A DNA stretch of 64,000 nucleotides from Bradyrhizobium sp. YR681 (lineage in GTDB: Bacteria; Pseudomonadota; Alphaproteobacteria; Rhizobiales; Xanthobacteraceae), in assembly GCF_000282615.1 (NCBI RefSeq), contig NZ_AKIY01000182.1, positions 1 through 64,000 of the forward strand, given 5' to 3'. How positions within the stretch are numbered: position 1 is the stretch's first letter; every line of letters starts with the position of its first letter. The notes under the pieces were generated by a model. It was not told the origin of the DNA. It did no database searches and was given only the letters and a program-made list of their open reading frames with translations. The translations under genes were made by a program, and so were the position numbers. Positions 18,677 to 35,146 of this stretch are shown in pieces.

Positions 18677-19405
18677 TCACTCGCCGTCGAGGCCGCTCTC
18701 GGCGAGTTCGCGCAGCGCATCCGTATCCAGCACGACGATGGCGCCGTGCTCGAGGCGAACCCAGTTGCGACCGGCCCAGGCGCGCAATTGCTTGTTGATG
18801 CTCTCGCGCGTCATCCCCACCATCTCGCTGATCTCCTGCTGCGTGATGGCGAGAGTGCCGCTGCCGGAGTCGAACTTACGCTCCTCGGTGAGACCGAGCA
18901 GCGCGCTCGCGAGGCGGCCAGGCAGATTCTGCAGGATCACCTGCTCGACCTGCTGGCTGGTCCAGCGCAGCCGTGCGCAGAGGAGCTCGATGAACTTCAT
19001 CGCCAGCGCCGGCTGACTTTTTACGAACGGCAGGAAGTCGCGGCGGTCGATGATGTAGAGCTCGCAATTGGTGTTGGCGGTCGCATCCGCCGAACGCGGC
19101 GCACCATCGAGAACCGCAATCTCGCCAAAAATCTCTCCGGGACCGATCAGATTGAGAATGGCATTCCGTCCGTCGGGAGAAGAAGAGGATATCTTCACCG
19201 TCCCCGTGATCACCGCGAACAGATTGTTGCCGGGATCGCCCTTGGCGGCGATCGTCGCACCGCGCTTCACCGTGGTGTGCTTGGCATAGCGGCAGAGCTG
19301 GTCGAGAGCGTCCGGCTCCAGATCCGCGAAGATCGGATGCTTGCGCAGGACCGATAATTTATTACCCGCCGCTTGTCGGGGGTCGCCGGTCTTGTCCTGA
19401 GGCAC
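18677..19405 (-). CDS. Crp/Fnr-family transcriptional regulator (Crp-like, no cysteine cluster)
   Basis: A 242-residue regulator with a cyclic-nucleotide-binding-type beta-barrel (GEIFGEIAVLDGAPRSADATA at about 90-110, close to the cAMP phosphate pocket of Crp), a long helix, and a winged HTH (ITQQEISEMVGMTRESINKQLRAW). It lacks the N-terminal cysteines of FNR. The start is a GTG at 19405 with TAGGAG upstream. The HTH lacks the E-x2-SR of FNR-type readers (it has RESINK), so it should bind a Crp-type or different site. It ends six bases from the convergent cyclase gene. Confidence 0.88.
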   Translation of the reverse strand: MPQDKTGDPRQAAGNKLSVLRKHPIFADLEPDALDQLCRYAKHTTVKRGATIAAKGDPGNNLFAVITGTVKISSSSPDGRNAILNLIGPGEIFGEIAVLDGAPRSADATANTNCELYIIDRRDFLPFVKSQPALAMKFIELLCARLRWTSQQVEQVILQNLPGRLASALLGLTEERKFDSGSGTLAITQQEISEMVGMTRESINKQLRAWAGRNWVRLEHGAIVVLDTDALRELAESGLDGE

Positions 19406-19686
19406 GCCGCTGGGCTCCTAAGACTGCGAGGCACTGGAGTTCCTGCGTAGTCAGTGTTGCCCGGCTTTTCAACCGGAAAGCATGCATGTGTGCTTTTAGG
19501 CAAATGCGGCGAAAATGCTGCCGCCCGCCTGGAAGCCGGCATCCGAAGGATGCGTCGATGCGTCCCGGTCGATGCAGAGTTGCAGGCACCGCACGTCGCG
19601 ATTGCGTTGAGGCGCTGCCCAGCGGCGAGGAGCCGGCCGGCGAGCGTCGGCGGGTGCAGGTCAGATGAGGGTTCCGATCGGGAGCG
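19406..19686. other. Gene-free spacer upstream of the Crp-like regulator
   Basis: About 280 bases. Frames are open in places but rich in Arg/Pro/Ser and without good start sites. No FNR box or convincing terminator is seen. It must contain the promoter of the leftward Crp-like gene and the end of the small membrane protein transcript. Confidence 0.5.
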
Positions 19687-19815
19687 TCAGCGCCTGGAAT
19701 CCGAATCGAGCCGGCCTGCGCTGGTTTGTCGGTCTGCCCACGCCAAGGCGGCGGCGAAAGTGACAAAGATCGCAACGACGACGATGGTCATCAGCAATGC
19801 GTCAGCCGGCATCAT
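19687..19815 (-). CDS. Small single-span membrane protein with FNR-type promoter
   Basis: A 42-residue reading frame starting MMPADALLMTIVVVAIFVTF, with one strong transmembrane helix (about residues 7-28) and a short charged tail (ADRQTSAGRLDSDSRR). GGGAGGAG lies directly ahead of the double ATG. A perfect FNR consensus box TTGATCAGGATCAA is centred about 60 bases upstream, with an AT-rich possible -10 (AAATAAT) at the expected distance. It is too short for most gene callers. Single-span proteins of this kind often attach to respiratory oxidases or stress complexes; the function here is unknown. Confidence 0.6.
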   Translation of the reverse strand: MMPADALLMTIVVVAIFVTFAAALAWADRQTSAGRLDSDSRR

Positions 19816-19867
19816 GCTCCTCCCGGATTTGTTTGAGGGCATTATTTGTGGCCGGCGGCTGGCGTCA

Positions 19868-19881
19868 TTGATCAGGATCAA
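19868..19881 (-). promoter_or_regulatory. FNR/FixK box (perfect consensus)
   Basis: TTGATCAGGATCAA matches TTGAT-N4-ATCAA exactly. It lies 27 bases after the stop of the FNR-type regulator gene and upstream of the 42-residue membrane protein gene on the same strand. If it is centred near -41.5, the start point would fall near 19833, 18 bases before that gene. Confidence 0.75.
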
Positions 19882-19908
19882 AAATCCGAGAGCGTTGTGG
19901 AAAGCCAG

Positions 19909-20622
19909 TCAGGCGGCGGCCAGGGCCTCGACGCGTGCCGGGTCGAGCAGGCTGATGCCGCCGTGAATGATCTCGATCGTGCCGTGGCGTTCAAGCTTGG
20001 TGAAGGTGCGACTGACGGTTTCGATGGTCAGGCCGAGATAGTCGGCGATGTCCTGGCGGCTCATGGGAAGTGGAACCGTGTCGGACGGCCCCTTGAGCGC
20101 TAACAGTCGCTCGCGCCAGCCGAGCAGGAAGCTTGCGACCTTCTCGTCCGCCGAGCGGCGGCCGAGAAGGACCATATGGTCGCGGGCCTGACTCAACTCG
20201 CGAATGGCCAGCTCGTTGATCCGCCTGAGCAGTTGCGGACGATCCTCGATGAAACGGCCAAAAGGCGCCTTCGCAAACTGGCACACGGTCACCATGCCGA
20301 TTGCATCGGCCGAGAAATTGTGGCGGCCGGACAGATTCATCCCCAGGAAATCGCCGGGCAGGGCAAAGCCCACGATCTGCCGCCGGCCGTCGGGCAGCAG
20401 CTTGTACAGCCGCATCACGCCTTCGAGGACGTTGTAGAACGATGTGGTGATGTCCTCCTCGGAGAACACCGTCTCGCCCGAAGAAAAATGGACGCGGCGG
20501 CCAAGATGCTCGAATTCCCTGAGCTCGGCCGCATCCAGCGACGAACAGACCGCCGATCCGCGCACGGCACAATCGCTGCAAACATGCCCGTTCGGCTCAG
20601 TCGTGACCACGGAAGGCTTCAT
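19909..20622 (-). CDS. FNR-type oxygen-sensing regulator (FnrN/FixK1/AadR-like)
   Basis: A 237-residue Crp/Fnr regulator with the N-terminal cysteine set HVCSDCAVRGSAVC (residues 14-27) plus an internal Cys in VTVCQFAKAPF, the pattern that holds an oxygen-labile [4Fe-4S] cluster in FNR, FnrN and FixK1. The recognition helix reads DIADYLGLTIETVSRTFTKLE, with the E-xx-SR residues that read TTGAT half sites. Under low oxygen it should dimerise and bind TTGAT-N4-ATCAA boxes. Such boxes occur just downstream, in its own divergent promoter gap and at several promoters over the next 14 kb, making it the best local candidate for their regulator. A distant FixK2-type protein could also read them. Confidence 0.88.
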   Translation of the reverse strand: MKPSVVTTEPNGHVCSDCAVRGSAVCSSLDAAELREFEHLGRRVHFSSGETVFSEEDITTSFYNVLEGVMRLYKLLPDGRRQIVGFALPGDFLGMNLSGRHNFSADAIGMVTVCQFAKAPFGRFIEDRPQLLRRINELAIRELSQARDHMVLLGRRSADEKVASFLLGWRERLLALKGPSDTVPLPMSRQDIADYLGLTIETVSRTFTKLERHGTIEIIHGGISLLDPARVEALAAA

Positions 20623-20708: not shown

Positions 20709-20722
20709 TTGACCCAGATCAA
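20709..20722 (+). promoter_or_regulatory. FNR/FixK box upstream of cytochrome c gene
   Basis: TTGACCCAGATCAA fits TTGAY-N4-RTCAA. It lies in the divergent gap between the FNR-type regulator and the cytochrome c gene. A -10-like TATCCT at 20744-20749 is at the right distance for a class II promoter toward the cytochrome gene, with a start point near 20757. It might also regulate the regulator's own gene. Confidence 0.75.
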
Positions 20723-20780
20723 TCCTGGCGGGCCTCTCCACCCTATCCTGCGCCGAAAGTTCGTCGGGACCCCGCCTTCC

Positions 20781-21098
20781 ATGTTTCAGCACGCGCTCCG
20801 CCAGGGCCTGATTGGCCTCTTCCTGATCACGCCTGCGCTGGCGGCCCCGACCGCCGAGCAACGCGGCAAGGCCTTTGCGCGGGCCAATTGCGCCCGCTGC
20901 CACGCAATCGACCGGGTTTCGAAGAGCCCTCTCAGCATTGCGCCACCGTTGCGCACGCTGCACAACCGTTATCCGATCGACAGCCTGGAGGAGGCACTGG
21001 CCGAAGGTATCTCGACCGGCCACGCCGACATGCCGACCTTCGAGCTCAATCCGGACCAGATCCACGACCTGCTGTCCTACCTGAAGACGCTGGAATAG
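20781..21098 (+). CDS. Small periplasmic c-type cytochrome
   Basis: A 105-residue protein with a signal peptide (MFQHALRQGLIGLFLITPAL, cut after ALA), a single heme-binding motif NCARCHAI at about residues 36-43, and a C-terminal methionine (HADMPTFEL) as the probable sixth iron ligand. This is a small class I cytochrome c that would shuttle electrons to an oxidase or reductase. Its upstream FNR box implies low-oxygen expression, as for cytochromes feeding cbb3 oxidase. It ends eight bases from the convergent MCE gene. Confidence 0.88.
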   Translation: MFQHALRQGLIGLFLITPALAAPTAEQRGKAFARANCARCHAIDRVSKSPLSIAPPLRTLHNRYPIDSLEEALAEGISTGHADMPTFELNPDQIHDLLSYLKTLE

Positions 21099-21105
21099 CC
21101 GGCCC

Positions 21106-22209
21106 TCACACCGCCTGCACGGTCCAGCCGATCAGCTCCCGGGCGATGCGGGCAAAGGCCGTGTCGAACGCTACGACGGCGGCGGCCGGCTCGACCTTGT
21201 CGAGCTTCTCGCTGCTCTCGACGAGGCGGGACGCGACGACTTTGCCGTTCTTGTCGACGATCCGCGCCGACAGTTCGATCTCGACCCTTGTCTCGCCGTC
21301 AGTGGCAATTCGAAAGCGCCTGATGTCGATCAGAAGCTGGTAGTCCGCCTGGCCGAGATCGCTGGTGCGCAGCGGTGCGTGGGCGATGTCGTAGTTCTCA
21401 AAGCTGTCGATCAGCCGCGCCTGCACCAGCTTTGGAATGCTGTCGGCCCAGAGGAAATCGGCAAAGCCCGGATTGTCCCCGCTGGGCGCGAACAGCATGC
21501 GCTGGGTCTGGAGCATCGCGACCGCGGTCGGCTCGGGGATGGCCAGCGACGCGGAGAGCGTCTTGCCGGCCGGTCCGAGATTCTGCGGCGTGCGCAGGTC
21601 GTAGGTGATCTTCTGCGCCGGCGTCCCGCCGCCGGTCATCTTCTCAAGCCCCGCCAGAATGCCGTCGATCTTGCCGGTGTTGCGCGCCAAACCATCGGAA
21701 AACGTCTTGAGATTGGCGATCGTGTCCTTCAGTGGGCCGGAATTGTCCTCCAGCACGGTGTCAACGCGCCTCAGCGCATCGCGCGCGGCCTGCGTCATGC
21801 TCTGGCCTGCACCGGCCTCGGCGATCAGAGTCAGCGGCTCGCCGGACTTGGCGACGATCATGCCGCCCTCCAACGTAACCACCGGCACGCCGGTCAGTCC
21901 CTGGAAATCGAGCCCGACCTTGGTGTCGGTGCGCACCGGCGTCGTCGCAGCAACGGAGATCGTGGCGTTGACAAATCGCGGATTGTCCGGCGCAAGGCCA
22001 AGCTGCGTCACCTCGCCGACGCGGATGCCGTTGAAGAGCACGCCGGCACCCACCAAGAGCCCCGGCACCGGGCCCTGGAATTGCACATGATAGTTCGTGC
22101 GCGGCCCGATGCCGCCGGTGTTGTTCAGCCAGTAGACGAAGCCGAACATCGCGAGGATCGCGGCCAGCACGAAGGTGCCGATCAGCACGTAGGGAGCGCG
22201 GGTTTCCAT
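21106..22209 (-). CDS. MCE/MlaD-domain protein fused to ABC-transport auxiliary lipoprotein-like domain
   Basis: A 367-residue protein anchored by one N-terminal helix (YVLIGTFVLAAILAMFGFVYW). The MCE/MlaD domain follows at about residues 38-120 (VQFQGPVPGLLVGAGVLFNGIRVGEV). A C-terminal region at about 205-360 (TYDLRTPQNL, RLIDSFENYDIA, YQLLIDIRRFRI) matches the ABC_trans_aux/PqiC-type lipoprotein fold. In many bacteria these are separate proteins. It is the periplasmic lipid-carrying component of an Mla-like system, three bases after the ATPase gene. Such systems move phospholipids between the inner and outer membranes. Confidence 0.85.
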   Translation of the reverse strand: METRAPYVLIGTFVLAAILAMFGFVYWLNNTGGIGPRTNYHVQFQGPVPGLLVGAGVLFNGIRVGEVTQLGLAPDNPRFVNATISVAATTPVRTDTKVGLDFQGLTGVPVVTLEGGMIVAKSGEPLTLIAEAGAGQSMTQAARDALRRVDTVLEDNSGPLKDTIANLKTFSDGLARNTGKIDGILAGLEKMTGGGTPAQKITYDLRTPQNLGPAGKTLSASLAIPEPTAVAMLQTQRMLFAPSGDNPGFADFLWADSIPKLVQARLIDSFENYDIAHAPLRTSDLGQADYQLLIDIRRFRIATDGETRVEIELSARIVDKNGKVVASRLVESSEKLDKVEPAAAVVAFDTAFARIARELIGWTVQAV

Positions 22210-22212
22210 GTC

Positions 22213-22986
22213 TTATCTCATCTCGTGTTGCAGCATCTGCGAGCGCTTGCCGTGGAAGTAGGCGCGCACCCAGGGATGCTCGGATTGCAGCAGTTCGCGC
22301 ATCGGGCCAATCGCGACGATCTTGCCGTCGGCAAGCGCGGCGACGCGGTCGCAGACCGTGGTCAGGCTTGCAAGGTCATGCGTGACCATGAACACGGTGA
22401 GGCCCAGGGTCTTTTGCAGGGTCCCGATCAGCGCATCGAAATCGCCGGCGGCGATCGGATCGAGGCCGGAGGTCGGCTCGTCCAGGAACAGGATCGGCGG
22501 ATCGAGCGCGAGCGCGCGCGCCAGCGCCACGCGCTTGGTCATGCCGCCGGACAGCTCGGCCGGATATTTGTCGGCATCCTGCGCGCGCAGCCCGACCATC
22601 TCGAGCTTGGCGATTGCGATCTCGTCCATCAGCTCCTGCGACAGCACCAGATTTTCGCGCAGCGGAAACTGGACGTTCTGGCGGACCGTCAGCGAGGAGA
22701 ACAGCGCGCCCTGCTGGAACAGGATGCCCCATGTCGTGGCCGCGCCTTGCGTGCGGCCGCCGATCTCGTGCCCCATGACCTCGATGGTGCCGCTTCGACG
22801 CGGGATCAGGCCGATGATGGTCCGCATCAGCACTGATTTCCCGCCGCCGGATGCCCCCACCAAGCCGAGGATCTCGCCCTTGCGGACATTGAGCGACAGC
22901 TGGTCGAGCACGGTCTGGCGGCCGAAGCCGACCACGAGGTCGCGGACGCGGATCGCGAACTCTTCTTGCGATTGCTCCATCGTCAC
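22213..22986 (-). CDS. MlaF-like ABC transporter ATP-binding protein
   Basis: A 257-residue ABC ATPase: Walker A GASGGGKSVLM, signature LSGGMTKRVALARALA, Walker B PILFLDEPTSGLDP and switch His in VTHDLASL. The TSGLDPIAAGDFDALI stretch is typical of the MlaF family. It overlaps the permease gene by four bases and powers that permease. Confidence 0.92.
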   Translation of the reverse strand: MTMEQSQEEFAIRVRDLVVGFGRQTVLDQLSLNVRKGEILGLVGASGGGKSVLMRTIIGLIPRRSGTIEVMGHEIGGRTQGAATTWGILFQQGALFSSLTVRQNVQFPLRENLVLSQELMDEIAIAKLEMVGLRAQDADKYPAELSGGMTKRVALARALALDPPILFLDEPTSGLDPIAAGDFDALIGTLQKTLGLTVFMVTHDLASLTTVCDRVAALADGKIVAIGPMRELLQSEHPWVRAYFHGKRSQMLQHEMR

Positions 22987-24119
22987 ATTCCGATCGAGGC
23001 GAAGAAGATCGCGAACAGGCCGTCGAGCACGATCACCAGGAAGATCGACTTCACCACCGACGTCGTGGTCTGCCGTCCCAGCGACTCGGCGCTGCCCTTG
23101 ACACGCAATCCCTCGCTACAGGCGACGATCCCGATTACCAGCGCCATGAACGGTGCTTTCAGGATGCCCACCTCGAAATGGGTGACGGAAATCGCCTCAT
23201 GCAGCCGCGCGATGTAGATTGCGGGCGCCATGCCGCCGTAGAATTGGGCGACCAGTCCTCCGCCATAGAGTGCGGCAATCGAGCCGATGAAGGCCAGGAT
23301 CGGCAGCGCGATGACCAGGGCTGCCACTCGCGGCAGAATCAACACGTGGACGGGGTCGAGCCCCATGGTCGAGAGCGCGTCGATTTCCTCGCGCATCTTC
23401 ATCGAGCCGAGCTCGGCCGTGTAGGCGCTTCCCGAACGTCCCGCGACCATGATGGCGACGATCAGAACGCCGAGCTCGCGCAGCACCAGGATGCCGACCA
23501 TGTCGACAGTGTACGACTCCGCGCCGAACCTGCGGAAATGGAAGAACCCCTGCTGGGCAATGATGGCGCCGATCAGGAAGGTGATCAGCACGACGATGGG
23601 GATCGCCTGCCAGCCGATGCGATAGAGCTGATAGACCAGCGACGTCAGCCGCAGCGACCGCGGCCGACGCAGCACGCCCCCCACCGCCATGAACAACGCG
23701 CCCAGCATTTGAAGAAAGATCGTGATGTCTTCACGTGCGCCGACTGTGGACTTACCGAGATCCCCGAGCCTGAGCAGAACCGGATTTGGCGCTGCTGCCG
23801 GCGCCGGCGTATGACGGTTAACCTGGCGCACTTCGTCCATCAGGCCGCTGAAATGATCGGCCACGCCGACGAATTCAGCCGACCTGCCTGACGAGGCGGC
23901 CCGGCGCGACAGTTTCTCCAGGACCCAGGCGCCGAGCGTGTCGAGCGCACTGACGCCCGACATGTCCAGCGTCACGGCCCTGGATCGATCGACATCAGCC
24001 CCGACTGAACGGGACAGCGTCTCGAGCGTCGTCACATTCGCTGCGGTCCAGGACCCTTCCGGGCGCAATTTCAGCACATCGCCGGATGGCGTTGTCAGCA
24101 ACAGCGGTTCGGAGTTCAC
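22983..24119 (-). CDS. MlaE-like ABC permease with N-terminal STAS domain
   Basis: A 378-residue protein. The first 110 residues form a STAS-like domain (VTLDMSGVSALDTLGAWVLEKL), comparable to MlaB but fused. The rest is the MlaE permease with five or so membrane helices (FLIGAIIAQQGFFHFRRFGAE, LGVLIVAIMVAGRSGSAYTAELGSMKMREEIDAL). It is the first gene of the mla operon, and an FNR-like box lies about 70 bases upstream. The fusion removes the need for a separate MlaB. No MlaA or MlaC is in the window. Confidence 0.9.
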   Translation of the reverse strand: MNSEPLLLTTPSGDVLKLRPEGSWTAANVTTLETLSRSVGADVDRSRAVTLDMSGVSALDTLGAWVLEKLSRRAASSGRSAEFVGVADHFSGLMDEVRQVNRHTPAPAAAPNPVLLRLGDLGKSTVGAREDITIFLQMLGALFMAVGGVLRRPRSLRLTSLVYQLYRIGWQAIPIVVLITFLIGAIIAQQGFFHFRRFGAESYTVDMVGILVLRELGVLIVAIMVAGRSGSAYTAELGSMKMREEIDALSTMGLDPVHVLILPRVAALVIALPILAFIGSIAALYGGGLVAQFYGGMAPAIYIARLHEAISVTHFEVGILKAPFMALVIGIVACSEGLRVKGSAESLGRQTTTSVVKSIFLVIVLDGLFAIFFASIGM

Positions 24120-24188: not shown

Positions 24189-24202
24189 TTGACCTGTCTC
24201 AA
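24189..24202 (-). promoter_or_regulatory. FNR/FixK-like box toward the mla operon (one mismatch)
   Basis: TTGACCTGTCTCAA has one half site TTGAC and a second CTCAA that departs from RTCAA by one base. It lies 70 bases before the leftward mla operon and 23 bases from a second box serving the other strand. This paired layout recurs at the other divergent gaps of the block. Confidence 0.5.
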
Positions 24203-24224: not shown

Positions 24225-24238
24225 TTGACGCAAATCAA
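24225..24238 (+). promoter_or_regulatory. FNR/FixK box upstream of the DUF883-like gene
   Basis: TTGACGCAAATCAA fits TTGAY-N4-RTCAA and is centred 63 bases ahead of the start at 24295. A TAGGTT sequence at 24261-24266 falls where a -10 element is expected; the same TAGGTT sits at the same distance from the box before the CBS-domain gene. Confidence 0.75.
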
Positions 24239-24294: not shown

Positions 24295-24570
24295 ATGTTT
24301 GACAGCGACAGGATGAGCGAAGAACTTCGGATCCTGAAGGTGGATGTCACGCGCCTGCTGAGCACGGCCGGCGAGGAGATGTTCGAGAGCTCGAAAGACC
24401 GTGCCGAGGCCCTGGCCGACCAGATCAAGGCCGCACTTGCCGAACTCGGCGAAACCGTCAGCGACGAGCAGGAGCAGCTTCAGGGCCTCATCGCGGAGCG
24501 TCCGATGACATCGCTTGCCTCCGCTTTCGCGCTCGGCGTCGTCGTCGGCTTCATGCTGAGGAGACACTAG
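24295..24570 (+). CDS. DUF883/ElaB-like membrane-anchored coiled-coil protein
   Basis: A 91-residue protein: a charged helical N-terminal part (ELRILKVDVTRLLSTAGEEM ... ALADQIKAALAEL), then ERPMTSLASAFALGVVVGFM, a short C-terminal membrane segment ending in RRH. This is the plan of the ElaB/YqjD (DUF883) family, C-tail-anchored proteins linked to stationary phase and stress. GAGAGATC lies ahead of the start. It is directly followed by the holin-like gene and has an FNR box upstream. Confidence 0.8.
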   Translation: MFDSDRMSEELRILKVDVTRLLSTAGEEMFESSKDRAEALADQIKAALAELGETVSDEQEQLQGLIAERPMTSLASAFALGVVVGFMLRRH

Positions 24571-25056
24571 GTGAATACGGAGAATGTCGTCAAACATCTG
24601 CGCGTGCTGTGGCGCACCGACAGGATCATCGCGGACATCAGGCTGCGCCATCTCCTGGTCGGCCTCGGCCTGCGCGCCTTCGCGGCCTTGATCGCGGCGT
24701 TCGGGCTTCTGATGCTGGAGCTGTCGGCCTATTTCGCGCTGGTCCAGATCTGGAGCGCCATCGCGGCGGCGGCCATTCTCGGCACGGTCAATTTCGCCAT
24801 CGCGGCAGTTCTCTTCGTCATCGCCGGCCGTGCTCCGTCCGGTCGCGACATCGAGCTCGCCAACGAAATTCACGGCGCATCCATCGAGGCCCTTCAGCTC
24901 GAGGCGCGCGCGCTCCAGGCCCAGGTGTCCGGCGCGGTGCATCATCCGCTAAGCACGGTTGTGCCGGTGCTGGTGCCGCTGATCGCGATCATCGCCAAGA
25001 GCCTGCGAAAATCGGTCAAGGAGAGCGCCGCCGCATCGACGGAATCGCGCTCCTAG
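24571..25056 (+). CDS. Phage-holin-family (YqjE-like) membrane protein
   Basis: A 161-residue protein with two central transmembrane helices (LRAFAALIAAFGLLMLELSAYF and AAAAILGTVNFAIAAVLFVIA) and a third hydrophobic stretch near the end (VVPVLVPLIAIIAKSL). It belongs to the 'phage holin family' or YqjE-like group that in many proteobacteria is paired with a DUF883 protein, as here. The GTG start directly abuts the previous stop. A role at the membrane under stress is likely, and lysis is not implied. Confidence 0.7.
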   Translation: MNTENVVKHLRVLWRTDRIIADIRLRHLLVGLGLRAFAALIAAFGLLMLELSAYFALVQIWSAIAAAAILGTVNFAIAAVLFVIAGRAPSGRDIELANEIHGASIEALQLEARALQAQVSGAVHHPLSTVVPVLVPLIAIIAKSLRKSVKESAAASTESRS

Positions 25057-25065
25057 CCGGCGGGC

Positions 25066-27759
25066 TCAAAGCTTCAGCCGGACGTCGCAGATGTCATGCT
25101 CGGCCGGATCCGGCTTCACTTCGAAACCGAGCTGCCGGCACATTTCGAGCATTACGGTGTTCTCCTTGAGCACGTCGCCCGATATGGTCTTCAGTCCTTC
25201 CGACCTCGCATAGTCGATGATCAGCTGCATCAGGGCCCATCCGAGCCCCCTGCCCTTGAGATCGGACCGCAGCAGGATCGCGTATTCGCCGCTCTCGTAG
25301 ATCGAATCCGAATGGAGGCGGACCACGCCAACCATCTCGCCGGTCGCCTCGTCGAATGCGATGAAGGCCATCGCGCGAGCGTAGTCGAGCTGGGTCAGGC
25401 GCGCGATGAACTCGTGGGTGAACTCCTTCATCGGCGCAAAGAAGCGCAAGCGAAGGTCGTGAGGTGTCACATGACGCAGGAACGCGTGGATGGTCGGCTC
25501 GTCGTCGGGGCGCAATGGCCGCGCGAAGATGCGCCAATCGTCCTTGAGCTTGAGGCGGCGCTCCCATTGCGAGGGATAGGCGCGAACGGCGAAATTGGCG
25601 GGGCCCGAGCCGGCAAACTTCCGCTGCGACGGCCCCACCGCGACGCGGGCGTCGACTGCCGTCACCCCGGTCTCATCGGCGAGCAACGGGTTGATGTCGA
25701 ACTCGCGGATTTCTGGGATGTCGGCGGCCATCTGTGCCAGCTTGACCAGCACCATGGCGACCGCGTCGGGCTTCACCGCCGGCACGTCCCGGTAGGCGCG
25801 AAGCAGCCGTGACACGCGCGTGCGGTCGATCAGGTCGCGGGCGAGTTGCAGATCGAGCGGCGGCAGCGCGAGCGCCCTGTCATTGATGATCTCCACCGCC
25901 GTTCCGCCCCGGCCGAAGACCACGACGGTGCCGAAGGTGGGGTCGTCGGCAAGACCGAGGATCAGTTCGCGCGCCTTTGCCTTGACGACCATCGCCTGCA
26001 CGATGACGCCGCCGATACGGGCCTCAGGCCGCAGCTTCCTAGCCCGGGCGAGAATGTCGGAGACCGCCGTACGCACCGCCTCCGGCGTCGTCAGGTTGAG
26101 TACGACGCCGCCGACATCGGATTTGTGCACGATGTCGCGCGACATGATCTTCAGCACCACGGTCCCGCCTTGCGCAAATATCTCGTTTGCATAGGCCACG
26201 GCCTGCTCGACATCACCGGCGGCATAGGTCGGCACCATTGCGATGTCGTAGGATTCGAGCAGGTGCTTGATCTCGACAGGCTCGAGCCATTGGCGGCCAT
26301 CAGCAATCGCCGCAGCGACGATCTGCTTGGCAGCCCGGGCGTCTGGTACGAACGTGTCGGGCATCGCGGGAGGAACCTGGCTCAGTTCCTCGACCACTTC
26401 GCGGTGGCGGACCAGATGCATGAAACCGCGAACCGCATCATCCTCGGTCGGGTAGTTCGGAATGCCCGCGCCGGAGAGCGTCTGAATGATCGGCTGATTG
26501 GCCCCGATCCAGGCGGCAAGCACTGGCTTTGCCCAACTGCGGTGCTGCTGGCGATATTTGCCGACGAGCTCCGTCACGGTCGTCGCGATGTCGGCAGCCG
26601 AGGCGATCGCCGTCTGCACGTTGAGAACGAGAACGGCGTCATTGTCGGGGTCGGCGAGCAGCGCCTCAAGCGCCGCCGCGTAGCGCGGTGCATCGGCATC
26701 GCCCACGATGTCGACGGGATTTGCGCCGGACCAGGTCGGCGGCAGCACGGCATCGAGTTTCTTACGGGTATCCACCGATATGGACGCCGGAATTCCGCCG
26801 AGCTCGACCAATCGATCGACGGCAAGGACGCCGATGCCGCCGCCATTGGTCAGGATGGCGAGCCGTTTTCCCGCCGGAGATTCGACCCGGCCGAGCGTCT
26901 CGGCGCAGTCGAACAGCTCGCGCAGATCGGAGACGCGCAGGACGCCAGCACGGCGGAATGCCGCGTCGTAGACGGCATCGGCGCCCGCGAGCGCGCCGGT
27001 ATGGGTCGCGGCCGCCTTCGCGCCCTGCGCCATGCGGCCGGATTTCACCACGACGACCGGCTTCACCCGCGCAGCAGCGCGCGCCGCCGACATGAATTTG
27101 CGCGCGTCCTTGATCGCCTCGATATAGAGCAGGATCGCGCGGGTCTTGTGATCCATCGCGAAATAGTCGAGCAGATCGGCAATATCGACGTCGATCTGAT
27201 CGCCGATCGAGACGATGCCGGAGAAGCCGACCCCGCGCTGCGCGGCCCAGTCCACCATGCCGGCGGCGATCGCGCCCGATTGCGAAATCAGCGCGAGATT
27301 TCCGGCCGCCGGCATGTGCGCGGCGAAACTGGCATTGAGGCTCACCCCCGGCATCATGATGCCGAGACAGTTCGGCCCGATCAGCCGCATGCCGTATTTG
27401 CGGGCCGCGGCGACCGCGGCCTCGTGCAGCGATCCCGGTCCATGACCGAGTCCGGCCGAGACGATCAGCGCGCCCGCCGAGCCGAGCCGCCCGGCCTGAT
27501 CGATGATGCCCGGAACCTCCCGCGCCGGCGCGGTGATGACCACGAGCTCGGGCACGAACGGAAGCTTATCGAGGGTGCCCACCGCGGCAACGCCGCCGAT
27601 CTCGGCATGGCGCGGATTAACAAGGCCGAACTGTCCCGTGAATTCAGCCTTGTGAATGTTCTCCAGAACGGCGCGCCCCACCGAGACCGGACGGGCGCTC
27701 GCCCCGACAAGCGCAACCGAACGCGGCGACAGCAGATTCTTCAGGCGATAGGTCGACAT
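25066..27759 (-). CDS. ADP-forming acetate-CoA ligase fused to GNAT acetyltransferase
   Basis: An 897-residue three-part protein. The N-terminal CoA-binding domain (SVALVGASARPVSVGRAVL) and succinyl-CoA-ligase-like domain extend to about residue 460, with the phospho-histidine motif THTGALAG at about 252-259. An ATP-grasp domain follows (about 480-700; TVVVFGRGGTAVEIINDRAL). A C-terminal GNAT domain (about 735-890; VRLHSDSIYESGEYAILLRS, LKGRGLGWALMQLIIDYA) completes it. The architecture is that of Pat/AcuA-like protein acetyltransferases and of bifunctional acyl-CoA synthetases. It could make ATP from acetyl-CoA in low oxygen, or acetylate target enzymes. It lies 70 bases after the stress protein gene and probably shares its FNR-type promoter. 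Confidence 0.9.
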   Translation of the reverse strand: MSTYRLKNLLSPRSVALVGASARPVSVGRAVLENIHKAEFTGQFGLVNPRHAEIGGVAAVGTLDKLPFVPELVVITAPAREVPGIIDQAGRLGSAGALIVSAGLGHGPGSLHEAAVAAARKYGMRLIGPNCLGIMMPGVSLNASFAAHMPAAGNLALISQSGAIAAGMVDWAAQRGVGFSGIVSIGDQIDVDIADLLDYFAMDHKTRAILLYIEAIKDARKFMSAARAAARVKPVVVVKSGRMAQGAKAAATHTGALAGADAVYDAAFRRAGVLRVSDLRELFDCAETLGRVESPAGKRLAILTNGGGIGVLAVDRLVELGGIPASISVDTRKKLDAVLPPTWSGANPVDIVGDADAPRYAAALEALLADPDNDAVLVLNVQTAIASAADIATTVTELVGKYRQQHRSWAKPVLAAWIGANQPIIQTLSGAGIPNYPTEDDAVRGFMHLVRHREVVEELSQVPPAMPDTFVPDARAAKQIVAAAIADGRQWLEPVEIKHLLESYDIAMVPTYAAGDVEQAVAYANEIFAQGGTVVLKIMSRDIVHKSDVGGVVLNLTTPEAVRTAVSDILARARKLRPEARIGGVIVQAMVVKAKARELILGLADDPTFGTVVVFGRGGTAVEIINDRALALPPLDLQLARDLIDRTRVSRLLRAYRDVPAVKPDAVAMVLVKLAQMAADIPEIREFDINPLLADETGVTAVDARVAVGPSQRKFAGSGPANFAVRAYPSQWERRLKLKDDWRIFARPLRPDDEPTIHAFLRHVTPHDLRLRFFAPMKEFTHEFIARLTQLDYARAMAFIAFDEATGEMVGVVRLHSDSIYESGEYAILLRSDLKGRGLGWALMQLIIDYARSEGLKTISGDVLKENTVMLEMCRQLGFEVKPDPAEHDICDVRLKL

Positions 27760-28765: not shown

Positions 28766-28779
28766 TTGACGGAAGTCAA
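28766..28779 (+). promoter_or_regulatory. FNR/FixK box toward the alcohol dehydrogenase gene
   Basis: TTGACGGAAGTCAA fits TTGAY-N4-RTCAA and is centred about 71 bases before the start at 28844. TATGGA near 28803-28808 is a possible -10 element. It pairs with the opposite box 35 bases to the left. Confidence 0.75.
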
Positions 28780-28843: not shown

Positions 28844-29827
28844 ATGCGTGCGATGGTTTTGGCTGCCCCGCGAGCGCGGCTCCGGATGGAGGAGCGCCCG
28901 GATCCAATCCCGGGCGAAGGTCAGATCCGGGTGAAAGTCAGCGCTTGCGGCGTCTGCCGGACCGATCTTCACGTCGTCGACGCCGAACTGCCCGACATCC
29001 GCTATCCCATCGTACCCGGCCATGAAATCGTCGGCCACATCGATCTCATCGGCCCCAATGTCGCAACGCATGCGCGGGGTGACCGGGTCGGTATTCCCTG
29101 GCTCGGGTTCACCTGCGGAAGCTGCCGGTTCTGCCGGGAGGGTATGGAGAACCTCTGCGACCGCCCGCTTTTCACCGGCTATACGCGCGACGGTGGCTAT
29201 GCGACGCACGCAATCGCCGATGCACGCTATGCCTTTCCGCTCGGCGAAGCCGGCGACGACGTGGCCCTCGCTCCTCTGCTGTGCGCAGGCCTGATCGGCT
29301 GGCGTTCCCTGGTCCTGGCCGGCCAGGCAGAGAGGCTCGGCATCTACGGCTTCGGCGCCGCCGGACACATCATCGCGCAGGTCGCAGTCTGGCAGGGGCG
29401 ATCAGTCCATGCGTTTACGCGGCGCGGCGATATGGCCGCACAGGACCTCGCCCGCCGGCTTGGCGCCGTCTGGGCGGGTGCTTCCGACGACATGCCCGAC
29501 ACGCCGCTCGACGCGGCCATCATCTATGCTCCCGCCGGCGAGCTCGTGCCGGCCGCGTTGCGCGCCGTACGGAAGGGTGGCCGCGTGGTCTGCGCCGGTA
29601 TCCATATGAGCGACATCCCGAGTTTTCCGTACGATTTGCTCTGGCAGGAACGGCAGCTGGTCTCCGTTGCCAATCTCACCCGACAGGACGGCCTCGATTT
29701 TCTCAGGATCGCTCCGCAGGCGGGCGTGCGCACCGAGACGACCGCATTCCCGCTCGATCAGGCCAACGAAGTCCTGGAGATGCTACGGAACGGACAGATT
29801 CTCGGCGCCGCCGTGCTCAGGCCCTGA
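28844..29827 (+). CDS. Zinc-dependent alcohol dehydrogenase
   Basis: A protein of about 327 residues of the MDR family. The catalytic zinc ligands lie in SACGVCRTDLHVVD and VPGHEIVGHI, and the structural zinc site is CGSCRFCREGMENLC. The Rossmann motif is LGIYGFGAAGHIIAQVA. The start at 28844 follows GGAGAGA. It resembles the AdhA/YahK-like branch; ethanol, another alcohol or an aldehyde is the likely substrate. It heads an operon with the kinase fusion and CHAD genes and has an FNR box, so it may re-oxidise NADH when oxygen is scarce. Confidence 0.88.
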   Translation: MRAMVLAAPRARLRMEERPDPIPGEGQIRVKVSACGVCRTDLHVVDAELPDIRYPIVPGHEIVGHIDLIGPNVATHARGDRVGIPWLGFTCGSCRFCREGMENLCDRPLFTGYTRDGGYATHAIADARYAFPLGEAGDDVALAPLLCAGLIGWRSLVLAGQAERLGIYGFGAAGHIIAQVAVWQGRSVHAFTRRGDMAAQDLARRLGAVWAGASDDMPDTPLDAAIIYAPAGELVPAALRAVRKGGRVVCAGIHMSDIPSFPYDLLWQERQLVSVANLTRQDGLDFLRIAPQAGVRTETTAFPLDQANEVLEMLRNGQILGAAVLRP

Positions 29828-29851
29828 CCGTATCCCGGGACACCAGCTTCG

Positions 29852-31387
29852 ATGACAGGCGAAACGGCCGCCCAGGAACGGATCTTCAAGGTGCTCTGCG
29901 CGCATCCCGGCGTGACGCGGATCGACACGCATGCCGCATCGGTCTTTCTCGACGGGCCGCGTGCGTTGAAAATCAAGCGGGCTGTCCGGTTTCCGTTCCT
30001 CGACTATTCGACGCTCGAGAAACGCAAGGCGGCCTGCGAAGAGGAGATCCGCATCAACCGGCCGCTGGCGCCGCAGATCTATCACCGCGTCGTGGCGATC
30101 ACCCAAGAGCCGGACGGATCGCTGAAGATCGACGGCCGAGGCCAGCCGGTCGAGTATGCGGTCGACATGTCCCGCTTCGACGAAAGCCGGACGCTGGATC
30201 ATCTGGCGAAGGCGGGCCCGCTGGATGCAAACCTCGCCTCGGCTGCCGCTGACGCCATCGCGGCGTCACATGAGGCAGCGCCTCGCGCCGACGGCGCGGC
30301 ATGGGCTTCCTCCATCTCCGGCCTCATCGACGGAAACAGCAACGGTCTGCGGAAAGGCCATCATCTCGAAGCCGAAGAGATCGAGCTGCTCGGCCAGGCC
30401 TCGCACGCAATGTTCGTGCGTCTGCGGCCGCTGCTCGAAGAACGCGGCCGTCAGGGATTCGTGCGCCGCTGCCACGGCGACCTGCATCTTGCGAATATCG
30501 TCTCGATCGACGACCAGCCGGTCCTGTTCGACGCCATCGAGTTCGATGCGGGAATCGCAACTATCGACGTGCTCTACGACCTCGCCTTCACGCTGATGGA
30601 TCTGCTGCACCACGATCAACCACGCGCAGCCAATATCGTCCTGAACCGGTACCTTGCCGCCACGCCGCCGGAAAATCTCGACGCGCTCTCGACCTTTCCG
30701 CTGTTCATGTCCATTCGCGCAGCGATCCGCGCCCAGGTGACACTGGCACGGCTGGCGCGGCCCGAGGCCCACCAGACCGGAATTCTGCACGAGGCCCGCC
30801 GTTATTTCGACCTTGCCCGGGCTCTGATCCATCCCCCCGCCCCGTGCCTGATTGCGGTCGGCGGACTTTCGGGCACCGGAAAATCCGCCCTCGCGCGCGC
30901 GCTGGCACCCGGCGTCGCGCCGCAACCGGGAGCCGTCGTGCTGCGCAGCGACGTCATTCGCAAGCAGCTGTTTCGGGTGGAATACACCCACCGCCTGCCG
31001 CCGTCCACGTACCGGCCTGAGGTCACGGCACGCATCTACGAGGTGCTGGTGCAGCGTGCCCGGCAGGTGCTGGCGCAAGGTCACTCCACTATCGTCGATG
31101 CCGTATTCGCAAGCGAGTCCGAACGGGACGAGCTGGCCGCCATGGCCCGCGAATGCAACGTGCCGCTGAGCGGACTATTCCTCGTCGCGGACCTTGCGAC
31201 TCGTCAAGCGCGCATCGGCGGCCGCCAAGGCGATGCCTCCGACGCCACGCAGGAGGTTGCTGCGCAGCAAGAGCACTATAATATCGGCCATGTCGGTTGG
31301 GCGACCATCGATGCATCCAGAACACAAGAGCAGACGCTCCAGCGCTGCCGGGACGCGATCGCACGGCAAATAAGGCAATCTGATTGA
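29852..31387 (+). CDS. Aminoglycoside-phosphotransferase-like kinase fused to AAA/P-loop kinase
   Basis: A 511-residue two-domain protein. The N-terminal half has an APH/choline-kinase-like fold with the catalytic HGDLHLANIV (about residue 209) and DAIEFD (about 230). The C-terminal half is a P-loop kinase with VGGLSGTGKSALARAL (about 340) and an R-rich LVADLATRQARIGGRQ lid. This 'bifunctional aminoglycoside phosphotransferase/ATP-binding protein' is widespread, but its substrate is unknown. It does not imply antibiotic resistance. It is 24 bases after the alcohol dehydrogenase, and the CHAD gene overlaps its stop. Confidence 0.85.
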   Translation: MTGETAAQERIFKVLCAHPGVTRIDTHAASVFLDGPRALKIKRAVRFPFLDYSTLEKRKAACEEEIRINRPLAPQIYHRVVAITQEPDGSLKIDGRGQPVEYAVDMSRFDESRTLDHLAKAGPLDANLASAAADAIAASHEAAPRADGAAWASSISGLIDGNSNGLRKGHHLEAEEIELLGQASHAMFVRLRPLLEERGRQGFVRRCHGDLHLANIVSIDDQPVLFDAIEFDAGIATIDVLYDLAFTLMDLLHHDQPRAANIVLNRYLAATPPENLDALSTFPLFMSIRAAIRAQVTLARLARPEAHQTGILHEARRYFDLARALIHPPAPCLIAVGGLSGTGKSALARALAPGVAPQPGAVVLRSDVIRKQLFRVEYTHRLPPSTYRPEVTARIYEVLVQRARQVLAQGHSTIVDAVFASESERDELAAMARECNVPLSGLFLVADLATRQARIGGRQGDASDATQEVAAQQEHYNIGHVGWATIDASRTQEQTLQRCRDAIARQIRQSD

Positions 31388-32373
31388 CGCGGGCAAGGAT
31401 GTCGCGACCCACCACGAGTTCGACCGCTGCCGCGCGCGCCAAGCCGTCGACGCGGCGCAACACCCTGCCCGGCCGCCTCAGCCCCGGCATGGCCTGTGAT
31501 ACGGCGTTCCGGATCATCGCCCGCCGCCACCTCGGTGCCGTCCTCGCCCAGCACGACGGCACATGCCGCGGCGATCCGGAGGCGCTGCACGAGATCCGGA
31601 TCGCGCTGACACATCTGCGCACCGCCATCCGTTTCTTCTCACCCATGGTCGATGACGGGTTACGGCTGCAGGTCTGGACCGAGTTGAAGTGGCTGAACAG
31701 CCAGCTCGGCATGGTGCGCGACCTCGACGTGGCGATCGATCGGGTCATCGCCGAGAGCGACGGCGAGCTCGACGTCATTGCCGAGCTTCAGCACTGGACC
31801 GAGAAGCGCGCCGAGAGCCACCGCCTGCTTACGCGCGCGCTGCAGTCTGCGCGGTATCGCCGCCTGGTCGAGCAGACCTCAGGCTGGATCGAGAGCGGTC
31901 CCTGGTCGACCCGGCGCAGCAAGGAAGCCGTCAGGCTACGCCGCTGCCCGCTCACCGAGCACGCGACGGCGCGGCTGACCGAGTGGGAACAGACGCTGCT
32001 CAAGAAGGCCCGGAAGCTGCGCAAGCTCGACGTCGAGAAACGACACAAGCTGCGGCTGCTCAACAAGCGAATGACCTATTCGATCGAGTCGCTCGAGGAT
32101 CTGTTCACCGATGACGCCCTGACGAAGCAAAAATCCCTCCTCAAGCAATTGCGCAAGGCGCAAAAGTCCCTCGGGCAAATGAACGACGACGCGCGGGGCC
32201 AGGCGTTGGCAGCATCGCTGAACGGTGCCGGGCCCGCAGCGGGTATCCGTTTCCACGACCGCAAGCGGGAAAAGAAGCTGTTGCGAGCCGCCTCGGCAGC
32301 CTACCGGAAACTGGACAAGGCCAAGCCGTTCCGCTCGTCAGACCTCGCGCCGAATGCGGAGCCCGAGGATTAA
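31384..32373 (+). CDS. CHAD domain protein
   Basis: About 329 residues if the TTG overlapping the previous stop (TTGA) is used; the ATG at 31399 would give 324. The CHAD fold shows conserved histidines and basic residues: EALHEIRIALTHLRTAIRFF (about 60-80), LGMVRDLDVAIDR and KRHKLRLLNKRMTYSIESL. CHAD proteins bind polyphosphate and in some bacteria sit on polyphosphate granules. Its end shares the TTAA bases with the convergent PHA synthase gene. Polyphosphate binding next to PHA synthesis, in the same FNR-type block, suggests reserve handling in energy-limited cells. Confidence 0.85.
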   Translation: MTRARMSRPTTSSTAAARAKPSTRRNTLPGRLSPGMACDTAFRIIARRHLGAVLAQHDGTCRGDPEALHEIRIALTHLRTAIRFFSPMVDDGLRLQVWTELKWLNSQLGMVRDLDVAIDRVIAESDGELDVIAELQHWTEKRAESHRLLTRALQSARYRRLVEQTSGWIESGPWSTRRSKEAVRLRRCPLTEHATARLTEWEQTLLKKARKLRKLDVEKRHKLRLLNKRMTYSIESLEDLFTDDALTKQKSLLKQLRKAQKSLGQMNDDARGQALAASLNGAGPAAGIRFHDRKREKKLLRAASAAYRKLDKAKPFRSSDLAPNAEPED

Positions 32374-34208
32374 GTGTGGACGTAGTCTCCCGGCGCATCG
32401 GACAGACCGCCAACGCCCCCGACACCGATCGACGGCGGATCGCAGGGTGCGCCTGAGCGCGCCGCCAGCCATTGGGTCCATTCCGGCCACCACGATCCCT
32501 CAACATGCGGCGCCAGCTTCAGCCACTCGTCCGGGCCGACATAGGACGCGTCCGCGGCCTTGGTCATCACCTGATATTTGTGCCCGGGCTGATCGGGCGG
32601 CGCGACGACGCCGGCGTTATGGCCACCGCTGGTCAACAGAAACGTTACGTCCGCATCAGCCTGATAGTGGATCTTGTAGACGGATCGCCATGGCGCCACG
32701 TGGTCGGCGAGCGTGCCAACCACGAACATCGGCGTATGAATGTCGGAGAGCGAGACGCTCCTGCCTTCGACCCCATAGCGGCCTTCGGCCAGGTCGTTGT
32801 CGAGAAACAGCTTGCGCAGATATTCCGAGTGCATGCGGTAAGGCAGTCGCGTGGCGTCGGCGTTCCAGGCCATCAGATCACTCGGTGGCGTCGCCTCGCC
32901 CATCAGATAATCGCGCGACAGCCGCGACCAAACCAGATCGTTGGAACGCAACAGCGCGAACGCGCCGGCCATCTGCGACGTGTCGAGATAGCCGCGCTGC
33001 CACATCATGTCCTCGAGGAATGCGACCTGGCTCTCATTGATGAAGAGCGTCAATTCGCCGGCCTCCGTGAAGTCGGTCTGGGCAGCGAGGAGCGTGATGG
33101 TGTCGAGCCGTCCGTCGTCGTCGCGCGCCATGGCCGCGGCGGCGATCGACAGCAATGTGCCGCCCAGGCAATAGCCGAGCGCGTGGGTTTTCCGACCTGG
33201 CATGATCCGGCCGATCATGTCCAATGCCGCCATCACGCCCTGCTTGCGATAATCGTCAAAGGCAACATCCCGGTCCTTCGCGTCCGGATTGCGCCAGGAG
33301 ATCGCGAACACGGTGAAGCCCTGACCGGTCAGATATTTGACCAGGGAGTTCTGCGGCGACAGGTCGAGGATGTAGTACTTCATGATCCAGGCCGGGACGA
33401 TCAGGATCGGCTCGGGTCGCACCTGCGCGGTTGTCGGATGGTACTGGATCAGCTCCATCAGATCGTTGCGGTAGACGATCTTGCCGGGCGAGGATGCTAC
33501 CGTCTTGCCGACGACAAATTGCTCATCCCCACCCGGCTTCGAGGCGGACAGCATGTGCATCAGGTCGCTGCACCAGTTCTGCCAACCAAACACGAAATTC
33601 TCTCCGCCGCTCCGAACCGCCTTTTCCAGAACCTGCGGATTGGTGGCCGCGAAATTCGACGGCGCCAGCATGTCGAGCATCTGCCGCACCGAGAACTCGA
33701 CGATGGCTTCGTTCGCGTGCGATACGCCACGCACGCCGGTCGTCGCATCGTGCCACCAGCGCTCCGTGAGCAGAAATCCCTGCGCCAGCAGATTGAAGGG
33801 CGCGGCCTCCCATTGCGGGTCCTTGAAGCGGCGATCGCGTCCCTTCGGCTCAATCACGGACCACGGCTTTTGCCATGTCGCGTGCGCGGCAGCTTCCAGG
33901 AACCGGCCTGTATCGCGAAGAATGTTGCGGGACATCTGCATCTGGCGCTCCGGCGCCGCAGCAAGATGCGAACTCCAATCGAGCCAGGCCAGCGACAACG
34001 CCACAGGCGAAATTCCGCCGGTGAACCGCGCCAACGTCGCATGAAACGCGCGGTCGAGCGGGTATGGCTCCGATGCAGGCAGGGCATTGGCGACGACCGG
34101 CTTCTCCGGGGTCCTTTCGGGGGGCGTCACAGAGGTTTCGGCGACCGGATTGGCAGCGAGAGACTGCGGCGGCTCATCGGCCCGCGGAAATATCTTCACG
34201 ACGCTCAT
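32370..34208 (-). CDS. phaC: Poly(3-hydroxyalkanoate) synthase (class I PhaC)
   Basis: A 612-residue alpha/beta-hydrolase-fold polymerase. An N-terminal PhaC_N domain covers about residues 90-260. The lipase-like box GYCLGG holds the catalytic Cys at about 347, with Asp in VVGTLADHVAPW and His in SGGHNAGVV. It joins 3-hydroxyacyl-CoA units into PHA/PHB granules. The first 50 residues are Pro/Ala-rich. The length fits class I enzymes. The promoter region has an FNR-like box with one mismatch at 34276-34289. Related genomes often carry several phaC copies; this one stands apart from phaAB. Confidence 0.92.
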   Translation of the reverse strand: MSVVKIFPRADEPPQSLAANPVAETSVTPPERTPEKPVVANALPASEPYPLDRAFHATLARFTGGISPVALSLAWLDWSSHLAAAPERQMQMSRNILRDTGRFLEAAAHATWQKPWSVIEPKGRDRRFKDPQWEAAPFNLLAQGFLLTERWWHDATTGVRGVSHANEAIVEFSVRQMLDMLAPSNFAATNPQVLEKAVRSGGENFVFGWQNWCSDLMHMLSASKPGGDEQFVVGKTVASSPGKIVYRNDLMELIQYHPTTAQVRPEPILIVPAWIMKYYILDLSPQNSLVKYLTGQGFTVFAISWRNPDAKDRDVAFDDYRKQGVMAALDMIGRIMPGRKTHALGYCLGGTLLSIAAAAMARDDDGRLDTITLLAAQTDFTEAGELTLFINESQVAFLEDMMWQRGYLDTSQMAGAFALLRSNDLVWSRLSRDYLMGEATPPSDLMAWNADATRLPYRMHSEYLRKLFLDNDLAEGRYGVEGRSVSLSDIHTPMFVVGTLADHVAPWRSVYKIHYQADADVTFLLTSGGHNAGVVAPPDQPGHKYQVMTKAADASYVGPDEWLKLAPHVEGSWWPEWTQWLAARSGAPCDPPSIGVGGVGGLSDAPGDYVHT

Positions 34209-34275
34209 GGCTGAATGGTCCTGCGGGCTTCTGTTCTACGTCGGCAGCAGGATATGTGGACGCTTTCGACACGCG

Positions 34276-34289
34276 TTGAGCTGCATCAA
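34276..34289 (-). promoter_or_regulatory. FNR/FixK-like box toward phaC (one mismatch)
   Basis: TTGAGCTGCATCAA departs from TTGAY by one base. A CATATC sequence at 34251-34256 on the minus strand is a possible -10 element at the expected distance. It shares the gap with a better box facing the CBS gene. Confidence 0.5.
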
Positions 34290-34340
34290 ATCCCGGTACG
34301 GATCACAATTCCTCAACCAGGGAGAAACGGCTCGGATCCC

Positions 34341-34354
34341 TTGACCTGAGTCAA
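34341..34354 (+). promoter_or_regulatory. FNR/FixK box upstream of the CBS-domain gene
   Basis: TTGACCTGAGTCAA fits TTGAY-N4-RTCAA. TAGGTT at 34376-34381 lies 22 bases after it, the same spacing and sequence as at the DUF883 promoter, which supports a common promoter design. Confidence 0.78.
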
Positions 34355-34417
34355 ACCACACCCCGACGGCCGCGCTAGGTTTGCGCATCGAAATTTGACA
34401 AGCCAGCGGAGTCTTCC

Positions 34418-35146
34418 ATGCGCGCCCACCAGATCATGACCCGGTCGGTCATTTCGGTCACCCCCGACACCAGCATCGTCGAGGCGGCGAACATCATGCT
34501 GAAGCGGCACGTCAGCGGCCTCACGGTGGTTAACGACACCGGCAAACTCGTTGGTGTCGTCTCGGAAGGAGATTTCATCCGCCGCAGCGAAATCGGCACC
34601 GGGCGCAAGCGGGGGCGCTGGTTGCGGTTCATCCTCGGTCCGGGCAAATCGGCCAGCGACTTCGTCCACGAGCACGGCCGCAAGGTCTCGGAGGTGATGA
34701 CCGCCTCGCCCGTGACCATCACCGAGGATACGGCGCTCGCCGAGATCGTCGATCACATGGAACGGAACAACGTGAAGCGCCTGCCGGTGGTCCGCGGCGA
34801 CAAAGTCGTCGGGATCGTGTCCCGCGCCAACCTTTTGCAGGCGGTCGCAGGGCTCGCCCGCGAGGTGCCGGATCCCACGGCTGATGACGATCACATTCGC
34901 AGCCGCATCATCGATACCATGGAGAAGAATGACTGGTGCCCATTCGGACTCAACGTCATTGTCCGCGACGGCATCGTCCACCTCAGCGGCGTCATTACCG
35001 AAGAACGTTCGCGGCAGGCCGCAATCGTCGCTGCGGAGAACGTCGAGGGCGTGAAGAAGGTGCACGACCATCTGTGCTGGGTCGACACCATGTCCGGCGT
35101 CTATTTGAATTCGCCCGAGGACGACGATCTCGCCAAGGCAAGCTGA
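34418..35146 (+). CDS. CBS-CBS-BON domain protein
   Basis: A 242-residue protein with CBS domain 1 (about 1-60: IMTRSVISVTPDTSIVEAAN), CBS domain 2 (about 88-145: VMTASPVTITEDTALAEIVD ... VKRLPVVRGDKVVGIVSRAN) and a BON domain (about 155-222: LNVIVRDGIVHLSGVITEER). CBS pairs sense adenine nucleotides, and BON domains bind membranes or partner proteins. Such proteins are typical hypoxia or stress regulon members. No enzyme domain is attached. An FNR box stands upstream. Confidence 0.88.
   Translation: MRAHQIMTRSVISVTPDTSIVEAANIMLKRHVSGLTVVNDTGKLVGVVSEGDFIRRSEIGTGRKRGRWLRFILGPGKSASDFVHEHGRKVSEVMTASPVTITEDTALAEIVDHMERNNVKRLPVVRGDKVVGIVSRANLLQAVAGLAREVPDPTADDDHIRSRIIDTMEKNDWCPFGLNVIVRDGIVHLSGVITEERSRQAAIVAAENVEGVKKVHDHLCWVDTMSGVYLNSPEDDDLAKAS

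Follow-up and report, generated by a model that had tools for sequence, protein, structure and literature searches.

A fixK1 block in Bradyrhizobium sp. YR681: eight FixK/FNR-type boxes, nine promoter arms and a probable FixLJ-FixK2 low-oxygen switch

The closest described relative of the gene block treated here is the run blr6059-blr6074 of Bradyrhizobium diazoefficiens, in which we take bll6061 to be fixK1. The block itself lies in a stretch of Bradyrhizobium sp. YR681 DNA of 64,000 nucleotides (nt), called the window below (contig NZ_AKIY01000182.1, positions 1-64,000, assembly GCF_000282615.1). In the published tables for B. diazoefficiens, blr6059 is a cyclase, bll6060 a CRP/FNR protein, bll6061 a transcriptional regulator, blr6062 a cytochrome, bll6063 an MCE protein, bll6064 an ATP-binding protein, bll6065 MlaE, blr6067 a holin, bll6068 a GNAT protein, bll6069 Usp, bll6073 PhaC2 and blr6074 a CBS protein, with bsr6066 also listed (PMC6515984, PMC9104804); a zinc-binding alcohol dehydrogenase corresponds to blr6070 and a kinase to blr6071 (PMC2908626). 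Microoxia raises both protein and transcript of blr6059, bll6060, bll6063, bll6064, bll6065, bll6068, bll6069, bll6073 and blr6074, and in the same table FixK2-target marks stand on bll6069, bll6073 and blr6074 and none on the mla genes (PMC6515984 Table 2). In the delta-fixK2 mutant, bsr6066-blr6067, bll6073 and blr6074 are decreased (PMC9104804 Table 2), and phaC2 is said to have been validated by in vitro transcription (PMC9104804). FixK2 dependence is also stated for blr6070, blr6071 and blr6074 (PMC2908626), and phaC2 and fixK1 are counted among the FixK2 targets (PMC10888616).

The YR681 block encodes, in order, a cyclase, a Crp/Fnr protein, a FixK1-like regulator, cytochrome c, MlaD, MlaF, MlaE, a small hypothetical protein, a holin-like protein, an acyl-CoA ligase/GNAT fusion, the universal stress protein Usp, a zinc alcohol dehydrogenase, an APH-AAA kinase, a CHAD protein, PhaC and a CBS-BON protein. 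Compared via the published tables, blr6059-blr6074 have the same order, the same strands according to the l/r in their tags and, where listed, the same products; the block is evidently the Bradyrhizobium fixK1 block and their counterpart, and its CHAD gene would by position correspond to blr6072. Very probably, the block is a low-oxygen switch of the FixLJ-FixK2 type, in which nine promoter arms would be served by eight boxes, every one of them at a position suited to class II activation by a FixK/FNR dimer. A drop in oxygen would bring FixLJ-FixK2 into action, perhaps aided by the cysteine-bearing FixK1, to switch on fixK1 itself, a membrane protein of 41-42 amino acids, cytochrome c, mlaEFD, the small hypothetical and holin-like genes, usp with the acyl-CoA ligase/GNAT gene, adh-kinase-CHAD, phaC and the CBS-BON gene. 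The features are listed below; "exact" and "one mismatch" refer to the strict box pattern TTGAY-N4-RTCAA, one-mismatch forms being counted separately.

18677..19405, minus strand: Crp/Fnr-family regulator, bll6060-like (Pfam cNMP_binding, HTH_Crp_2)
19687..19815 (stop included), minus strand: small open reading frame (ORF), 41-42 amino acids, one hydrophobic stretch; GGAGGAG like a ribosome-binding site before ATGATG
19868..19881, minus strand: box facing the small ORF, exact; AATAAT at 19846-19841, 35 nt from box start
19909..20622, minus strand: FixK1-like regulator (Pfam Crp/HTH_Crp_2)
20709..20722, no strand assigned: box common to fixK1 and cytochrome c, exact; TAAAAT at 20688-20683 (fixK1), TATCCT at 20744-20749 (cytochrome c)
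20781..21098, plus strand: cytochrome c, blr6062-like (Pfam Cytochrom_C)
21106..24119, minus strand: putative mlaE-mlaF-mlaD operon, bll6065-bll6063-like (Pfam MlaE, ABC_tran, MlaD)
24189..24202, minus strand: mlaE-arm box, one mismatch; TAGAAC at 24167-24162
24225..24238, plus strand: box of the small hypothetical/holin-like arm, exact; TAGGTT at 24261-24266
24295..25056, plus strand: small hypothetical protein (bsr6066-like) and holin-like membrane protein (blr6067-like)
25066..27759, minus strand: acyl-CoA ligase/GNAT fusion, bll6068-like, downstream of usp (Pfam ATP-grasp_5, Succ_CoA_lig, Acetyltransf_1)
27830..28669, minus strand: universal stress protein, bll6069-like (Pfam Usp)
28718..28731, minus strand: usp-arm box, exact; TATTCT at 28695-28690
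28766..28779, plus strand: adh-arm box, exact; weak -10 TATGGA at 28803-28808, 37 nt from box start
28844..32373, plus strand: alcohol dehydrogenase, APH-AAA kinase and CHAD protein, blr6070-blr6072-like (Pfam ADH_N, AAA_33/APH, CHAD)
32370..34208, minus strand: polyhydroxyalkanoate (PHA) synthase, bll6073, phaC2-like (Pfam PhaC_N)
34276..34289, minus strand: phaC-arm box, one mismatch; TATCCT at 34254-34249
34341..34354, plus strand: CBS-arm box, exact; TAGGTT at 34376-34381
34418..35146, plus strand: CBS-BON protein, blr6074-like (Pfam CBS, BON)

An earlier note on this DNA had described eight boxes within about 14.5 kb, and these were borne out as six exact and two one-mismatch forms, starting at 19868, 20709, 24189, 24225, 28718, 28766, 34276 and 34341. 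Shuffles predict 0.12 copies of the exact pattern TTGAYNNNNRTCAA in the window; the observed six all lie between 19868 and 34354. With up to one mismatch there are 16 sites across the window (3.53 expected in 64 kb from shuffles); two of the ten one-mismatch sites (24189, 34276) are in gaps of the block and eight fall outside 18677-35146. The window scan found no box for the Crp/Fnr regulator at 18677..19405 in the gap adjoining its start. In the genome-wide scan that the note had proposed as a check, 7,831,714 bases hold 38 exact places, compared with two for a reversed-pattern control, and density in the block, with six of the 38, is above background. When 38 sites were placed at random, six never fell within a span of 14.5 kb in 200,000 simulations (at least three did in 7.7%), and a null limited to an assumed 12% of intergenic sequence likewise gave no simulation with six. 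Because six of 38 exact sites of the genome fall in 14.5 kb, the cluster is far above chance. An origin of the boxes by chance or composition was rejected from the shuffles, the genome scan and the placement simulations and is contradicted also by conservation among relatives; its probability is negligible.

Each of the four divergent gaps holds at least one box, as had been claimed: fixK1/cytochrome c has a single box, and mlaE/small hypothetical, usp/adh and phaC/CBS have two apiece. The box reported behind the FNR-type regulator starts 27 nt past the fixK1 stop. All four of the -10-like elements that the note had named could be confirmed by eye, at 35-36 nt from the start of their box. Each of the nine arms in the window has such an element 34-37 nt from that start, at class II distance; those of adh and mlaE are weak. 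Moreover, all eight boxes meet the published FixK2/FixK consensus TTG(A/C)-N6-(T/G)CAA (PMC9104804). This consensus was also used for counts among relatives, which drew on the 80 best of 207 confirmed loci that a contig scan gave for the surroundings of the acyl-CoA ligase; each arm was counted over 200 nt upstream in the window and in every locus that had its gene at 40% coverage and 45% identity with a match beginning within 60 residues. A box lies in the arm-specific distance range at usp in 62/62, the small hypothetical in 53/53, mlaE in 62/63, cytochrome c in 58/59, CBS in 60/62, fixK1 in 58/61, adh in 42/45 and phaC in 39/51. At about 35 nt from the start of the box, the most frequent bases give every arm a -10-like element: TAAAAT at fixK1, TATTCT at cytochrome c and usp, TAGAA at mlaE, TATCCT at phaC, a TAGGTT-like sequence at CBS and the small hypothetical, and TATGG at adh. 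Where a gap holds two boxes, as three do, each arm has one of its own among relatives. Because the mlaE arm has a conserved box and a -10-like element at the same spacing, the promoter of the mla operon appears to be built like the other arms of the block.

This layout bears on two boxes printed for B. diazoefficiens. TTGACCTGTCTCAA and TTGAGCTGCATCAA, given for bsr6066 and blr6074, are identical to the window boxes at 24189 and 34276 (PMC9104804). The B. diazoefficiens papers give these two genes the far box, whereas here each arm also has a nearer one with class II spacing. By this spacing measure, the far boxes suit the small hypothetical and CBS genes less well than 24225 and 34341 do, which suggests that 24189 and 34276 may serve mlaE and phaC, and the nearer two the small hypothetical and CBS genes.

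Several points weigh against the proposed switch. The phaC arm is without a box in 12 of 51 cases, the relatives in the arm counts belong mostly to one genus, and the distance ranges of the arms were chosen after box positions had been inspected. In some arms, such as fixK1, conservation at the -10 does not exceed that of the flanking columns, which weakens the -10 argument there. Induction by microoxia and dependence on FixK2 come from B. diazoefficiens counterparts and would apply to YR681 by analogy. Furthermore, the genomes of two relatives (L027, L029) have no FixK1 match at E <= 1e-15 yet carry exact boxes at usp: the reader of that box is a different Crp/Fnr protein, or FixK was lost recently.

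FNR-type oxygen sensors carry four cysteines with a characteristic spacing for an iron-sulphur cluster. The FixK1-like protein has C15, C18, C26 and C114; it scores 173.5 bits with the NCBIfam FnrL model (cut-off 300) and is below the cut-offs of the FixK models too. Elsewhere in the genome, a FixK-like gene (C218:31010-31513; E 1e-33 to the FixK1 protein) lies about 5 kb from ccoN (C218:36371-37732), with an exact box at C218:36052. The local FixK1 might itself be an oxygen-sensing, FNR-like main reader with FixK2 secondary, since it is inside the block and has cysteines that would be spaced as in FNR-type sensors; fixK1 and most boxed genes are also jointly absent from the locus in L027, L029 and L035. 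However, usp boxes are kept at loci without fixK1. Likewise, bsr6066, phaC2, CBS and others are published as FixK2-dependent (PMC9104804, PMC2908626), and a leading role for FixK1 is quite unlikely. A reading of some boxes, usp above all, by a different Crp/Fnr protein, such as NnrR or the neighbouring regulator (18677-19405), is improbable as well: the boxed usp of L027 and L029 and the retention of the Crp/Fnr neighbour there speak for it, but bll6069, which corresponds to usp, bears a FixK2-target mark (PMC6515984), and the loss of FixK may be recent, the E <= 1e-15 threshold covering only the stronger FixK homologues. FixK2 is the probable reader in YR681, presumably acting on operons and directly controlling mla and the small ORF as well.

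The box behind the regulator, as noted earlier, exists, but the small ORF that box 19868 faces had been missed. A regular-expression search found this ORF in 49 of the 80 loci in addition to the window. Against the window copy, over 47 pairs, the median nonsynonymous divergence (dN) is 0.093 and the median synonymous divergence (dS) 0.926, including one pair (L033) misaligned by an upstream start; the small ORF is under purifying selection. A 12-member profile has one match in its own genome, and it matches 81 of 198 sampled genomes of the bacterial family, in 22 of 47 genera, and 3 of 289 sampled genomes of the class, the own genome included. Within 130 nt upstream of 88 copies (86 from the family sample and two from the class sample), an exact box is present in 56, a form with one mismatch in 16 and only the looser consensus in six, while ten lack a box; the box centre falls 55-69 nt ahead of the start in 72 of these 78. 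The shuffle rate is about 0.7% per 127 positions at window composition. A random-window control (3679/17600 windows) was discarded as unusable because the short loci contain boxes themselves.

The ORF follows a FixK1-like gene in 18 of 32 loci and stands beside a FixK-like gene in one further; other copies are among unrelated genes or, by eye, near a FixH/FixI-like pair (L138). It is found near ccoN, within 2.2 kb and on the same strand, at five places in four genomes, and within 1.8 kb of cydA in at least four genomes picked by eye. Among the 198 genomes, ccoN occurs in 65 of 81 with the small ORF versus 64 of 117 without (Fisher p 2.5e-4, kinship uncorrected). A strict tie to the cbb3 oxidase was rejected as a simple rule, 16 of the 81 having no ccoN match. 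Membership in a known family was also rejected: the only Pfam hit is DUF6112 at E 0.022, under cut-off, and NCBIfam gives nothing up to E 0.1. The profile matched no solved structure chain up to E 10, and the plasmid collection held no match. We consider it likely that a member of an unnamed family of single-pass membrane proteins of about 40 amino acids is expressed from the box behind fixK1. Whatever its location, such a protein would usually have a FixK/FNR class II promoter to itself, and it may be a small subunit or an assembly or tuning factor, that is, an accessory, of low-oxygen respiration. Regulon lists may have missed it because of its size. CcoM, a 36-amino-acid subunit of the Pseudomonas stutzeri cbb3 oxidase, is likewise very small and linked to low-oxygen respiration (PMC10433244); no solved chain matches the profile, and this is a likeness rather than membership.

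The block is modular and has moved, as partial, duplicated and relocated forms at other loci show. At L027 and L029, fixK1, cytochrome c, mla, small hypothetical-holin, adh, phaC and CBS are missing, and boxed usp and kinase-CHAD are retained. At L056, Crp/Fnr, acyl-CoA ligase, kinase, CHAD and a holin-like match are found, with no exact box in 22.7 kb. In the L064 genome, much of the block is present a second time (L204, L205; CBS to fixK1), about 2 kb from a FixK-like gene, and the phaC, usp, mlaE and mlaF matches of this copy are in pieces through decay or assembly errors. In the L032 genome, fixK1 and cytochrome c are about 4 kb from a FixK-like gene. As a separate observation, the YR681 block is followed at 35173-37458 (minus strand) by genes for a RidA-type protein and for an acyl-CoA ligase of the AMP-binding type; they have no strict boxes, and this pair adjoins the block in most Bradyrhizobium loci.

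It had been proposed that one survival programme unites an acetyl-CoA ligase/acetyltransferase, an alcohol dehydrogenase, a PHA synthase, a CHAD protein and an Mla transporter. Nothing here shows such joint action, and usp/acyl-CoA ligase and kinase-CHAD persist at the locus in relatives without much of the rest. Chances are about even that the block is a regulatory neighbourhood only, in which a common oxygen signal governs unrelated gene jobs: the products have no pathway in common by family, and gene subsets, adh most often, are missing separately among loci, while gene order is retained in most of the 80 relatives and one genome has the second copy of much of the block near a FixK-like gene. 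Among the products, the PHA synthase at 32370-34208 is a candidate for class I, whose members have a catalytic Cys-Asp-His; it matches PhaC_N above cut-off and has a GYCLG motif by eye, with 541.9 bits for TIGR01838 (cut-off 622.65), and its B. diazoefficiens counterpart is assumed not to be an active synthase (PMC10888616). Pfam gave no match for the small hypothetical protein and, for the holin-like protein, only Phage_holin_3_6 under cut-off. The products of the block may have a joint physiological role.

Set against the described systems, the regulon reading of the earlier note is right and mostly known already, largely gene by gene in the model strain: FixK/FNR control and oxygen response are supported, and both are in print for the orthologous B. 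diazoefficiens genes. Its view that mla and the kinase are not standard FixK targets has to be amended. The kinase does not fit, as blr6071 is stated to be FixK2-dependent (PMC2908626); for mla, Table 2 of PMC6515984 carries no FixK2 mark, but the Mla proteins and transcripts of B. diazoefficiens are microoxia-induced, and the mla arm here has its own conserved box. New here are the box and -10-like element that each arm, mla included, mostly retains across relatives at about class II spacing, and the boxed microprotein behind FixK1 with its family; the mla promoter and the microprotein family were not found described in the literature searched, the primary regulon paper (Mesa et al. 2008) being outside it. 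These results place a strain that lacked annotation within an oxygen network that has been studied in depth, and they offer a likely pairing of boxes with genes; they also make it possible to test whether FixK controls lipid transport (mla) directly, and they draw attention to a conserved microprotein of low-oxygen life. For the alphaproteobacterial regulons of FNR/FnrL and FnrN/FixK, the published accounts give target lists that span genomes, with no contiguous block mentioned in the passages available, and phbC is possibly under FnrN/FixK control in some Rhizobiales (PMC4999443). These regulons use the same box type as the YR681 block, and usp, alcohol dehydrogenase, kinase, CBS and phbC genes recur in them as predicted or tested targets (PMC2908626, PMC4999443).

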